A stretch of DNA of 64,000 bases, taken from assembly GCA_017792465.1 (NCBI GenBank), contig CP051234.1:1-64000 (forward strand), given 5' to 3'. The notes beneath the pieces are model-generated. The model searched no databases. It was not told the DNA's origin and worked only from the letters and a program-made list of their open reading frames with translations. The number at the start of each line of letters is the position of its first letter. The stretch's first letter is position 1. This DNA is from Filomicrobium sp. (GTDB taxonomy: Bacteria > Pseudomonadota > Alphaproteobacteria > Rhizobiales > Hyphomicrobiaceae). Positions 5,665 to 38,101 of this stretch are shown here, piece after piece. Position numbers and translations under genes: made by a program.

Positions 5665-5716
5665 AGTGTAATCCTCCGCAGCCGTCCCTTCGACGGCGTT
5701 ATCGCCTCATCAGTAT

Positions 5717-5912
5717 TGCGGCAGGTCTCCTGGCTTGCGCGTCATCCCAATCGCTCGCCTTCCCAGACATGGTTGCCAGTGGCATTAGGAGTGATTGGTC
5801 TTCGCTTACAGTCGCGAGGGCGGCCACGGCTTTGGAATGCAACTCAAGCGCAATCCGCACCGTGTTCCCGTTTTCAGCCGACTCCGGCTTGGCCGGCGTC
5901 AGCACCACAATA
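5717..5912 (-). promoter_or_regulatory. Cobalamin riboswitch upstream of cbtB
   Basis: Read on the minus strand the segment contains the hallmarks of the B12 riboswitch in order: GGTGCTGACG, GGGAACACGGTGCGGATTG, the TGCAT-containing segment, GGCCGCCCTCGCGACTGTAA (the B12 box), GCCACTGGCAACC, GGGAAGGCGAGCG, and the closing GCCAGGAGACCTGCCGC at the 3' end. It precedes cbtB by about 50 bases. A GCCGTC/GACGGC hairpin at 5681-5697 lies just upstream of the cbtB Shine-Dalgarno sequence and has no U tract, which favours control of translation rather than termination. Adenosylcobalamin binding would repress cobalt uptake. Confidence 0.95.
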
Positions 5913-5978
5913 GGATTGTTGTGGCACAATCCACGGCGTCGCGCCAGTGCCGATCAGGAACGTTGAGGTCTCAAGGCG

Positions 5979-8220: not shown

Positions 8221-8249
8221 TTGACAATCCTAGGCAACCTGCGATTTTC
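8221..8249 (+). promoter_or_regulatory. Candidate sigma-70 promoter of the cob operon
   Basis: TTGACA at 8221-8226, a 17-base spacer and ATTTTC at 8244-8249 lie just upstream of the plus-strand riboswitch. The -35 box is a perfect match and the -10 box is weak, as is common in alphaproteobacteria. The predicted transcription start near 8256 would put the riboswitch at the 5' end of the transcript. Confidence 0.45.
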
Positions 8250-8260
8250 ACGCCCTTAGC

Positions 8261-8448
8261 TGGTGCCTGTGTTTTTTAGCAGGTGAAAAGGGAATGTGGT
8301 TCGTGCCCTCCGGGCCCTTAAGCCACAGCCGCCCCCGCGACCGTGAACGGAAAGACCCGTGTCAATACCACTGGATGGCCACATTCCATCTGGGAAGGCG
8401 ATATGGGTCGCTGGATTGTCCAAGATCCGTGAGCCGGGAGACCTGCCA
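8261..8448 (+). promoter_or_regulatory. Cobalamin riboswitch upstream of the DUF1636-cobW-cobN operon
   Basis: Contains the conserved B12 riboswitch blocks in order: GGTGCC, AGGTGAAAAGGGAATGTGGT, GCCACAGCCGCCCCCGCGAC with CTGT-like spacing (B12 box), ACCACTGGATGG, CTGGGAAGGCGAT and the closing GAGCCGGGAGACCTGCC. It lies about 115 bases before the first gene. The large stem complementary pair (GAATGTGG and CCACATTC) is also evident. It should repress the whole downstream cobalamin operon when adenosylcobalamin is sufficient. Confidence 0.96.
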
Positions 8449-8537
8449 GCCATTGAACATCAACGGGCGGACGGGGCGTTCTGCAACCGGTTGGGCACAG
8501 CTTTGGGCAAGGACCTGCCCACCTGCTCCACGGTTAA

Positions 8538-35073: not shown

Positions 35074-35520
35074 GGCGAGGAGCGTTTGCTTTGCTGTCAT
35101 TGGAATTTTGGCTCTCGAACGAAGGTGGCACAGCAAACGAAATTCGAACAGTGTTTGCTGCGTTGGAACGATCCCCATCGTGAACGGGGCTTGCGCGGGT
35201 CAGTCAATTGGCGGTGCCAGCTTCGACACTACCAGAAGACGGTCAACATACCTTTTCGAGAACAACTTGACGCGAGTTTGGTAAAGGTAAGGTTGAGAAC
35301 GTGCGATCGCGAAACGATTGAGGATAACCTCTGGGCGCGGTTGAAGAGGCGCCAGACTGGTTTATGCAATGCACTCATGCCGCGCGCCGGTTGGTGGCTT
35401 TCGACGGGCAATTCGTCGGTCCTTAGTGGACATTAATCAAGGGGATTGGCAGACTGCTTGGCGTTGCCGGTTCCGACGAAGGTTCCAGTACGAGGTTTCA
35501 GCGAAGGGGTACGAGGACTT
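35074..35520. other. 447-bp divergent intergenic region, cpdR / amidohydrolase
   Basis: No gene is visible. TTGACG at 35266-35271 followed after 17 bases by TAAGG-like sequence could be a weak plus-strand promoter. The region must carry the promoters of both divergent genes. I see no CtrA half-site pair (TTAA-N7-TTAA). Confidence 0.4.
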
Positions 35521-36420
35521 ATGCCCGTCAGGGAACGCGCCGCTATTGAGGCCGAGTTAACGCCCCCTTTTGTTGTCCAGGAACCCGAGCGTCTTTCGAC
35601 GCCCGTCGTTTTTTGTTCCCCCCATTCGGGACGGATCTATCCGGATTATTTCCTGGCTCAATCGCAGCTTGACGCGCACACATTGCGTAAGTCCGAAGAC
35701 TGCTACGTCGATGAGCTGTTTTCCTGTGCGCCTGCATACGGTGCGCCTTTGATCGCGGCGTTGTTTCCGCGCGCCTACCTCGATCTTAACCGGGAGCCTT
35801 ATGAACTCGATCCAGTGCTGTTTGATGAACCGCTGCCGGCTTATGCCAATGCACACACGACGCGGGTTATCGGCGGGCTTGGAACAATTGCGCGGATTGT
35901 TGGTGATGGGACTGAAATCTACCGTGATCGCTTGACGCTGGCTGCGGCTCTGGTGCGGATCGAGGCGCTTTACCGTCCGTTTCATGCGGCGCTGGCTGGC
36001 TTACTTGAGCGTACGCGCAATCAGTTCGGCTATGCGATCCTGATCGATTGCCATTCGATGCCGTCAAACAGCACCTCGACGGACCGGCGCGTGCGGCCGG
36101 ATATCGTGCTTGGGGACCGGTTTGGGACCGCATGCGACGGTATGCTGACGGCTTTTGTGCAGCAGGCCTTCAGCTCGCGCGGCTATGGCGTGCATGTGAA
36201 TCGGCCTTATGCCGGCGGCTATATCACCGAGCATTACGGACAGCCGGTGCGGGGCATCAATGCCTTGCAGGTGGAAATCAACCGCGGGCTCTATCTCAAT
36301 GAGACGACTCTGGAGCCTAATGGTGGTTACCAACGGCTGCTCACCGATATCGAGCAGGTCGTTGCTAGTGTTGCTTGCGATTTGCCGGGGTGCTTTGAGC
36401 AGGCTTCCGCCGCAGAATGA
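35521..36420 (+). CDS. N-formylglutamate amidohydrolase family protein
   Basis: A 299-residue zinc hydrolase of the N-formylglutamate amidohydrolase family, which in histidine breakdown (HutG type) releases glutamate and formate. Features: FCSPHSGRIYP near 31-41, the RAYLDLNREPYELDP block near 82-96, the metal/catalytic IDCHSMPS near 173-180, and LQVEINRGLYL near 247-257. The start ATG has GAGG seven bases before it; the longer frame from 35446 has no support. No other hut genes are near, and family members beside cpdR are known in other alphaproteobacteria, so a hut role is not certain. Confidence 0.88.
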   Translation: MPVRERAAIEAELTPPFVVQEPERLSTPVVFCSPHSGRIYPDYFLAQSQLDAHTLRKSEDCYVDELFSCAPAYGAPLIAALFPRAYLDLNREPYELDPVLFDEPLPAYANAHTTRVIGGLGTIARIVGDGTEIYRDRLTLAAALVRIEALYRPFHAALAGLLERTRNQFGYAILIDCHSMPSNSTSTDRRVRPDIVLGDRFGTACDGMLTAFVQQAFSSRGYGVHVNRPYAGGYITEHYGQPVRGINALQVEINRGLYLNETTLEPNGGYQRLLTDIEQVVASVACDLPGCFEQASAAE

Positions 36421-36567
36421 GCTGCTGACCCAGCGACCGCCATCGATCAGCTGTGATCATTCGCAATGATCGTGCGTTGGCGAGGGGCGGTTGAGCGGCA
36501 GCAGGTCTGCGGAAGGCACACGCACTTATTATCGAGATAAGGCGCTTAAAAACCGTTGAGAAATGGG

Positions 36568-36637
36568 GAAAGAAAAGGGGCCGTCCAACGAATGAACGGC
36601 CCAAGTCTAGGGAGGAAACGCCCAAGGAGGGCTGCGA
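36568..36637 (-). ncRNA. Candidate small RNA 1 (anti-Shine-Dalgarno, paired with copy 2)
   Basis: On the minus strand a candidate promoter TTGCAT (36670-36665), a 16-base spacer and TAGCTT (36648-36643) leads to a predicted start near 36636. The roughly 67-nt RNA carries CCTCC and GTTTCCTCCCTAGACTT (36604-36620), perfectly suited to pair with ribosome-binding sites. It ends in a 9-bp hairpin (GGGCCGTTC with GGACGGCCC, 36578-36602) followed by CTTTTCTTT, a Rho-independent terminator. The motif, terminator stem and their spacing are repeated 390 bp away (copy 2). No open frame in either strand looks like a protein. Confidence 0.6.
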
Positions 36638-36956
36638 CGGACAAGCTAGCTCGTCGATGTCGCAATGCAACATTAGGAGGTGCGGCGCACAAATGACAAA
36701 TGCATTTTTTGCAGAGCTGATTTGCTCGTCGTGATGACCTATTGCTAACACGTTGGAAACAAACGACTTTCACCCTGAAATTTTTTGTGGCGGCCGAGCA
36801 ACTTGTCCACTGTGGCGCATTAACCCGCGCTTTTTGGGCCAGAAGTCGAATTGGCAAGCGGAATTTGCGCGCGTTTTCGGTCTCGGCGTTGCCCGTTCAA
36901 TGGGCAGGCCGTTTTACGGAACGCTATCGATGAAGAAGGAAGCGGATCGAGGGTTT

Positions 36957-37049
36957 TCGAAAAAAGTGGGCCGTTCGCGAAGAACAGCCCAAGTCCAGGG
37001 AGGAAACGCCCGATCTATCAGGCCATGACGCCGAAGTAGCTTCGCACGC
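36957..37049 (-). ncRNA. Candidate small RNA 2 (anti-Shine-Dalgarno, paired with copy 1)
   Basis: Second copy of the element. On the minus strand TTATAC (37061-37056) could be the -10 box, giving a start near 37049 and an RNA of about 90 nt. It has GGGCGTTTCCTCCCTGGACT (36992-37011), then a 9-bp hairpin (GGGCTGTTC with GAACGGCCC, 36968-36990, one G-U pair) followed by ACTTTTTT, a strong terminator. The 5' part differs from copy 1, whereas the CCTCCC segment and terminator stem are conserved, including a compensating G-U change. The clear -35 box seen in copy 1 is not obvious here. The surrounding 36421-37270 gap has no protein gene. Confidence 0.65.
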
Positions 37050-37270
37050 CACGTCGTATAATCTGGTGTTATTCGTCGCGTTCTGCAATTGAAGAAAAGT
37101 CGATTGTTGAGGATGAGTACGGTGGAGAATTGCGTGCAGGACATAGAGTTTTCCACGTCGAAATGTCAGTTTGCCTGAGGTTTATACAGGTTGCAGCGCG
37201 GTCGAGGGGTTGTAGTTATCTTCAATCACAGCGCGTTGTGCGGTAGCGAAAAGTGAACTGCTTGACAAAA

Positions 37271-38101
37271 ATGTCACATAAAAAACCACCGAAAGATGCT
37301 GATTTTGGGCGTTTGGCGGACTGTGCGCAGGTCCTGGCGGATGCTGCGGCCGCAAAAACGATTCGCTGGTTTCGTGCCGATTTCGATGTCGACAGCAAAA
37401 GCGGGGCCTCAAAGCCGGGGGTCCAAGGTCAGTTTGACCCTGTGACAATTGCCGATCGCGAGGCTGAAACGGCCATTCGTGACAAATTGAGCGAGCTGTT
37501 TCCCGATCACGGCGTTTTTGGCGAAGAATTCGGCAGTCTGAACCCCGATGCCCGCTTCCAATGGATTATCGATCCCATCGACGGGACGGCGGCCTTCATC
37601 ATGGGGTGGCCGATGTGGGGGACGTTGATCGGTCTCACCGATCAGGGACAACCCGTCCTGGGCGTGATGGACCAGCCTTATACGGGTGAACGGTTCTGGA
37701 GTACGCAATCGGGGGCGATGTGGCGGGGGGCTCAAGGGCAAACGCGCGAGCTGAAGACGCGATCGTGCGCCGGGCTTGGCGATGCGGTGCTGTCGACAAC
37801 ACATCCGGACTATTTCAGCGCCGAGGATCGGCAGTCCTTCGACAAGATCAAAGGGCAAGCCAAGACAACCCGATATGGTGGGGACTGCTATGCCTACGCG
37901 ATGCTGGCGGGTGGTTTTTCGGATTTGATCGTCGAAAGCGGATTGAACTCGTATGACGTGGCGGCCCTTATCCCGATCGTGGAGAAGGCTGGCGGCGTCA
38001 TGACGACTTGGTCTGGGGATAGTGCCGTCAACGGTGGAAACATCGTTGCGGCTGGCGATGCCCGTGTGCATGAAGCGGCGGTCAAGCTCCTCACGGGCTA
38101 G
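37271..38101 (+). CDS. hisN: HisN-like histidinol-phosphatase / inositol monophosphatase family
   Basis: A 276-residue phosphatase of the inositol monophosphatase superfamily. Metal-binding motifs are GEEFG near 83-87, the signature IDPIDGTAAFIMGWP near 101-115, and NSYDVAALIPIVEKAGG near 228-244. In alphaproteobacteria and actinobacteria this clade (HisN) dephosphorylates histidinol phosphate; the F-x-x-G-W-P-x-W-G-T-L-I-G element supports it, but substrate cannot be read from sequence. ATG 37271 is chosen over a GTG six codons upstream. No strong ribosome-binding site precedes it. Confidence 0.85.
   Translation: MSHKKPPKDADFGRLADCAQVLADAAAAKTIRWFRADFDVDSKSGASKPGVQGQFDPVTIADREAETAIRDKLSELFPDHGVFGEEFGSLNPDARFQWIIDPIDGTAAFIMGWPMWGTLIGLTDQGQPVLGVMDQPYTGERFWSTQSGAMWRGAQGQTRELKTRSCAGLGDAVLSTTHPDYFSAEDRQSFDKIKGQAKTTRYGGDCYAYAMLAGGFSDLIVESGLNSYDVAALIPIVEKAGGVMTTWSGDSAVNGGNIVAAGDARVHEAAVKLLTG

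Follow-up and report, generated by a model that had tools for sequence, protein, structure and literature searches.

Tandem alpha-R8 small RNA paralogues with different upstream elements beside an FGase gene in Hyphomicrobiaceae

The 64-kb stretch of DNA analysed here (the window) carries two homologous small-RNA genes on the minus strand between the genes for N-formylglutamate amidohydrolase (FGase) and an inositol monophosphatase (IMPase) family protein. Judged by sequence, both are members of the known family RF00519 (alpha-R8, MmgR/SisA). We read them as tandem alpha-R8 paralogues that would act in trans with Hfq, the FGase-side copy (copy A) being repressed by PhaR and the IMPase-side copy (copy B) being under another signal, and we give this joint reading a probability of about 0.93. 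The original prediction could not assign the pair to a described family; with both copies above the RF00519 cut-off, that finding is now placed in a studied one. Adjacent alpha-R8 copies are already known in general terms (PMC12559287). What sequence comparison appears to add here is a split between the paralogues in promoter and pairing ends, a modest refinement to a known family. We have not met this split in print, in a search that was incomplete for the family phylogeny and the MmgR work, and it may be known.

Locus layout and family assignment

The genes, seeds and terminators of the locus are, in window coordinates:

35446..36420, plus strand: FGase gene (PF05013, E 1.7e-73)
36564..36639, minus strand: copy A, FGase-side alpha-R8/MmgR-family sRNA (RF00519) with CCUCC in the first hairpin loop; Rfam 70.3 bits, gathering cut-off 41; fold z -3.66
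36578..36602, minus strand: Rho-independent terminator stem of copy A, from a terminator scan; 10 pairs and a T tract
36609..36618, minus strand: 10-mer seed UUUCCUCCCU of copy A, an exact match and the same as the seed of Caulobacter crescentus SisA (PMC12559287)
36953..37030, minus strand: copy B, IMPase-side alpha-R8/MmgR-family sRNA (RF00519) with a diverged first hairpin without CCUCC; Rfam 46.6 bits, gathering cut-off 41; hairpin common to six of the seven loci seen in the genus
36967..36991, minus strand: Rho-independent terminator stem of copy B, from the same scan; 10 pairs and a T tract
36997..37006, minus strand: 10-mer seed UUUCCUCCCU of copy B, an exact match
37253..38101, plus strand: IMPase family gene, flanking the RNAs (PF00459, E 2.7e-48)

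The scores come from an Rfam scan of the whole window with RF00519 (suhB, 'Makes More Granules Regulator', mmgR; alpha-R8), in which the E-values of 1.8e-12 for copy A and 2e-6 for copy B lie far beyond chance; copy B exceeds the cut-off by only 5.6 bits. Alpha-R8 RNAs are reported from all Alphaproteobacteria except Rickettsiales, in most species as one copy beside the FGase gene, and have in common the 10-mer, preceded by a weak hairpin, and a terminator (PMC12559287). All of the RF00519 sequence traits are present at the locus, namely the score, the exact 10-mer in both copies, the weak hairpin preceding it and the Rho-independent terminator, and adjacency to the FGase gene holds here too.

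A direct repeat of 30 nt, identical at 28 of 30 positions with a spacing of 388 bases, covers the core together with the first part of the terminator stem and reads GGGCGTTTCCTCCCT(A/G)GACTTGGGC(C/T)GTTC on the minus strand in both copies. Together with the RF00519 matches it supports, at the level of sequence, the predicted tandem pair of homologous sRNA genes carrying an anti-Shine-Dalgarno segment. The closing terminators described in the original prediction are likewise found in both copies as 10-pair stems followed by T tracts, and the C-to-U change in the stem does keep pairing (C-G to U-G); the terminator pattern scan alone was not above chance (2 found, 1.4 expected). The proposed extent of 36568-37049 gave the right location with inexact limits, the RNAs running from 36564 to 37030. 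From the end of the FGase gene at 36420 to the start of the IMPase gene at 37253 there are only mechanical open reading frames of 62 to 128 amino acids, and a Pfam search with eight of those overlapping it returned nothing at an E-value of 0.01 or below, in agreement with the claim that the gap holds no protein gene.

The predicted fold of copy A was better than all 200 shuffles. Copy B alone folded more weakly (z -1.92, with 9 of 200 shuffles equally good) and reached z -4.20 with a 5' extension. The CCTCCC segment is present in both copies. The folds leave it unpaired, except that in copy B a 3-pair stem may close part of it, and do not place it in a strong hairpin loop. Six copy A sequences from the window's genus have in common an extra predicted 5' stem, and 3 of 25 pairs are changed on both sides among these genomes, two of them in the 5' stem. 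Since 57 of 500 shuffles match these changes (57 to 71 on four of five measures and 460 on the fifth), covariation in copy A does not rise above shuffles and gives no firm support. The six copy B sequences of the genus are near-invariant from CATGGCCTGAT to the terminator while their flanks vary, and this near-invariance allows no covariation statement. By analogy with the spacing in Sinorhizobium meliloti, the copy A transcript may start near 36663; a sigma-70 scan returned one site against 0.6 expected, at neither RNA start.

First and later copies among relatives

Of 59 genomes of relatives searched, 54 matched RF00519 at an E-value of 0.001 or less, and in 47 a match exceeded the cut-off. 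In 30 loci (29 from relatives and that of the window, some of them incomplete) FGase lies beside the RNAs in 28, IMPase in 26, and the two together in 25. The comparison set consisted of 80 matches of 36.7 bits or more from the covariance search, in 43 loci of 43 genomes; outside it lay weaker matches, loci not beside FGase (such as those of G028) and several genomes of other families, and the two copies of G056 did not fit the core pattern used. Two or three copies occur in one locus in 28 of the 35 genomes of the window's taxonomic family (Hyphomicrobiaceae). The remaining seven are G002, G003, G004, G013, G016, G020 and G028, of which at least G003 is cut by a contig end. We call the copy nearest IMPase, which comes first in the direction of transcription, the first or upstream copy, and the FGase-side or middle copies the later ones.

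Upstream of the two RNAs in the window we located three elements:

36661..36669, minus strand: second PhaR-like core TGCATTGCG of copy A, overlapping the predicted 5' RNA stem; a core match, not the full 12-mer
36681..36689, minus strand: putative PhaR/AniA box TGCGCCGCA upstream of copy A; fits the core YGCRNYGCR, not the full 12-mer TGCRNYGCASMA; at the same place in congeners
37070..37075, minus strand: CGAATA element upstream of copy B, of the form CGAAYA common to 16 of 28 upstream copies in the family

The core is that of the published S. meliloti motif, the full 12-mer being taken from PMC6201568. The 90 bases preceding copy B contain no PhaR-type box. A PhaR-like core, CGCGCTGCA, lies at 37200-37192 on the minus strand, 170 bases upstream of copy B and outside the counted 90-base zone.

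In the 28 tandem loci of the family, all 34 later copies have the PhaR core in the 90 bases before them, as do 2 of the 28 first copies, against a background of 10.6% of random 90-base pieces from the same loci. The two exceptions are G034, whose first copy resembles the class of the others, and G033, which has both the box and CGAAYA. A second CCUCC, in the first hairpin before the core, is present in 25 of the 34 later copies and 1 of the 28 first copies, and CGAAYA, at -45 to -56 in the 16 first copies, occurs within 90 bases of 2 of the 34 others (background 5.0%); these loop and CGAAYA differences were counted on the sequences in which they were first noticed, and related genomes are not independent, so that p-values on them are not independent tests. 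In the window's genus, three of the six tandem first copies have no CGAAYA before them. Outside the family, the PhaR box precedes 8 of 9 single, 0 of 3 first and 2 of 3 later copies.

A further set of 80 loci contained 70 with a recognisable copy and 10 without, and 59 of the 70 share no sRNA stretch with the first set. Copies in this further set were recognised by a text pattern, which overlooks diverged sequences (L077 and L102, tandem by covariance matches, are single here). In the 59 loci the PhaR box precedes all 53 single copies, all 6 later copies and 1 of 6 first copies. CCUCC is carried by 27 of the 53 single, 5 of the 6 later and 1 of the 6 first copies, and CGAAYA by one, none and three copies of these classes, respectively. 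CCUCC is absent from 26 single copies, and 24 of these carry CCUUC, 23 being from Microvirga; the promoter difference therefore holds more generally than the loop difference. A tree of 65 family copies did not trace the upstream class to a single origin (12 changes, 3 starred branches).

A PhaR-like core near -45 to -51 precedes the third copies nearest FGase in G011, G027, G030 and G021 (L044, L048, L020 and L056), whose first hairpin lacks CCUCC; they are perhaps a third promoter class.

Copies A and B might instead be redundant, serving gene dosage in the manner of OmrA/OmrB or the Qrr RNAs and sharing both targets and control; their promoter and loop differences would then be drift. The 10-mer seed is identical in the two and the core and stem start are nearly so, as such siblings would have them. 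However, the differences recur by position, with the PhaR core at 34/34 later against 2/28 first copies and CCUCC at 25/34 against 1/28, counts to be read with the kinship among genomes and their origin in the discovery sequences in mind. We regard redundancy as unlikely, while giving it some weight.

Considerably less credible is the view of copy B as a decaying pseudo-sRNA of little function. Its low score of 46.6 bits and its loop without CCUCC would fit decay, as would the still weaker first copy of G007, the seventh genome of the genus with such a copy, which has a different hairpin and scores 38.6 bits, under the cut-off. Against this, copy B retains the 10-mer and the terminator, and its hairpin and core are near-invariant in six congeners in which the flanks vary.

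Other identities, the contig end and candidate targets

The RNAs are very improbable members of another CCUCCC-bearing family such as alpha-r14/NfeR1, SorY or BjrC1505. They have CCUCCC in common with these, and copy B has a weak SorY match (E 0.0029), but the SorY model (RF02651) gave 27.1 and 21.6 bits where the cut-off is 111, the listing for the gap at E up to 1 contains neither alpha-r14 nor BjrC1505 (overlapping members of one Rfam clan not being shown), and the RF00519 scores contradict such an assignment. SorY, sbrA, SorX and anti-hemB were tried for the gap RNAs and rejected, all being under their Rfam cut-offs. Alpha-r14 RNAs bear CCUCCUCCC hairpin loops, which are shown for SmelA075 and SmelA099. 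With these loops as the criterion alpha-r14 was rejected as well: CCTCCTCCC is missing from both strands of the gap, and the likeness to alpha-r14 or CUCCUCCC RNAs drawn in the original prediction was not sustained.

A covariance search of the whole genome listed five matches: copies A and B, a duplicate pair at the contig end, and one at 40 bits, under the cut-off of 41. The last, at 228817-228899, was rejected as a third genomic mmgR copy; BjrC1505 (RF02356) fits it better, with 61.7 bits against a cut-off of 50. This BjrC1505 sRNA (L007 1434-1575, plus strand) is likewise an RNA of Alphaproteobacteria that contains a stretch of GACGCCUCCCUGUU.

Where sampled (11,557 of 42,476 positions), the last 42.6 kb of the contig (G000:C1:4428302-4470904) repeat positions 1-42476 of the window with one mismatch and one 69-base insertion; a further net difference of 58 bases falls in the uncompared part. 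This repeat is probably an untrimmed circular assembly overlap and the second RNA pair no real duplication. That the RNAs are a dispersed intergenic repeat element, the alternative named alongside the original prediction, is scarcely conceivable: two copies do lie in one gap and two more near the contig end, but the latter fall in the apparent end overlap, FGase is beside the RNAs in 28 of the 30 loci, and none of the listed matches over the cut-off is at an unrelated genome site. The window also contains two cobalamin riboswitches (RF00174), at 5703-5924 on the minus strand (114.8 bits) and 8244-8464 on the plus strand (102.2 bits), no more than 3 kb apart.

Outside the sRNAs and the contig-end duplicate, the 10-mer has a single exact complement, AGGGAGGAAAC, which lies at the ribosome-binding site of a Lar_N-domain gene, a gene found in the window's genome and in none of eight other genomes of the genus. 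Over 11 bases this site is perfectly complementary to the sRNA core GUUUCCUCCCU (L041 1428-1438, plus strand). Target prediction failed, in that duplex energies, computed without accessibility, did not single out the phasin or Lar_N starts from 36 mechanically chosen background starts. For copy A the energy was -34.7 kcal/mol at the Lar_N start and -17.5 to -31.6 kcal/mol at the phasin starts tried, against a background median of -29.3 and a best value of -41.4.

Proposed regulation and known systems

Each copy has its own terminator, seen in the sequence, and probably its own minus-strand promoter. SisA of Caulobacter represses target messages via the 10-mer with Hfq, and the pairing was shown by compensatory mutation (PMC12559287); by analogy, the unpaired UUUCCUCCCU of both copies would probably pair with G/A-rich ribosome-binding sites and block translation with Hfq. 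Comparison among relatives suggests that copy A is probably repressed by PhaR/AniA, the polyhydroxybutyrate (PHB) sensor. Its hairpin loop carries an additional CCUCC. Having neither a PhaR-type box in the 90 bases upstream nor a loop CCUCC, copy B probably answers to another signal and offers a narrower pairing surface. In this genome there is a single match each for Hfq and for a PhaR-type protein (PHB_acc_N), and there are three for Phasin_2. Of the phasin genes, two carry the full 12-mer box (PMC6201568) upstream of a possible start, and the third has a loose PhaR core only, at one of two possible starts.

The split between first and later copies suggests siblings with one seed under different control. 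For the Hyphomicrobiaceae as a whole, we put at about even odds a two-part switch comprising a PhaR/PHB-controlled RNA with two anti-Shine-Dalgarno segments and, upstream of it, a sibling that has a single such segment, no PhaR box and a different promoter element, in many cases CGAAYA. If so, the same seed would serve two signals, copy A would reach targets closed to copy B, and the upstream sibling in most of the window's genus would have its own conserved hairpin before the seed. The siblings are then predicted to be independent, copy A being tied to carbon storage and copy B not.

Among known systems, AbcR1/AbcR2 (alpha-r15) are also tandem alphaproteobacterial sRNAs with CU-rich anti-Shine-Dalgarno motifs, and partial homology to RF00519 has been stated for them (PMC7143759). 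They have other genomic neighbours; the Rfam listing used here would not show an overlapping clan member. MmgR of S. meliloti (alpha-r8; RF00519) limits PHB accumulation, and AniA/PhaR binds its promoter and represses it (PMC8401924, PMC7143759, PMC12542648). The locus described here resembles it in the covariance model, the 10-mer core, the terminator and, for copy A, a putative PhaR/AniA-type box upstream. In contrast to the one copy given for S. meliloti (PMC12559287), there are two in tandem here, and copy B differs from MmgR in its diverged first hairpin and in having no PhaR-type box within 90 bases upstream. Several alpha-R8 copies, some of them adjacent, are reported for many genera (PMC12559287). 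SisA-D of C. crescentus resemble the present pair in the seed, the weak hairpin before it, the FGase linkage (SisA) and siblings with different promoters; the Caulobacter siblings lie at separate genome places (PMC12559287), whereas here they stand in tandem beside FGase. Whether alpha-R8 siblings are redundant or independent, a question raised in PMC12559287, becomes directly testable at this locus.
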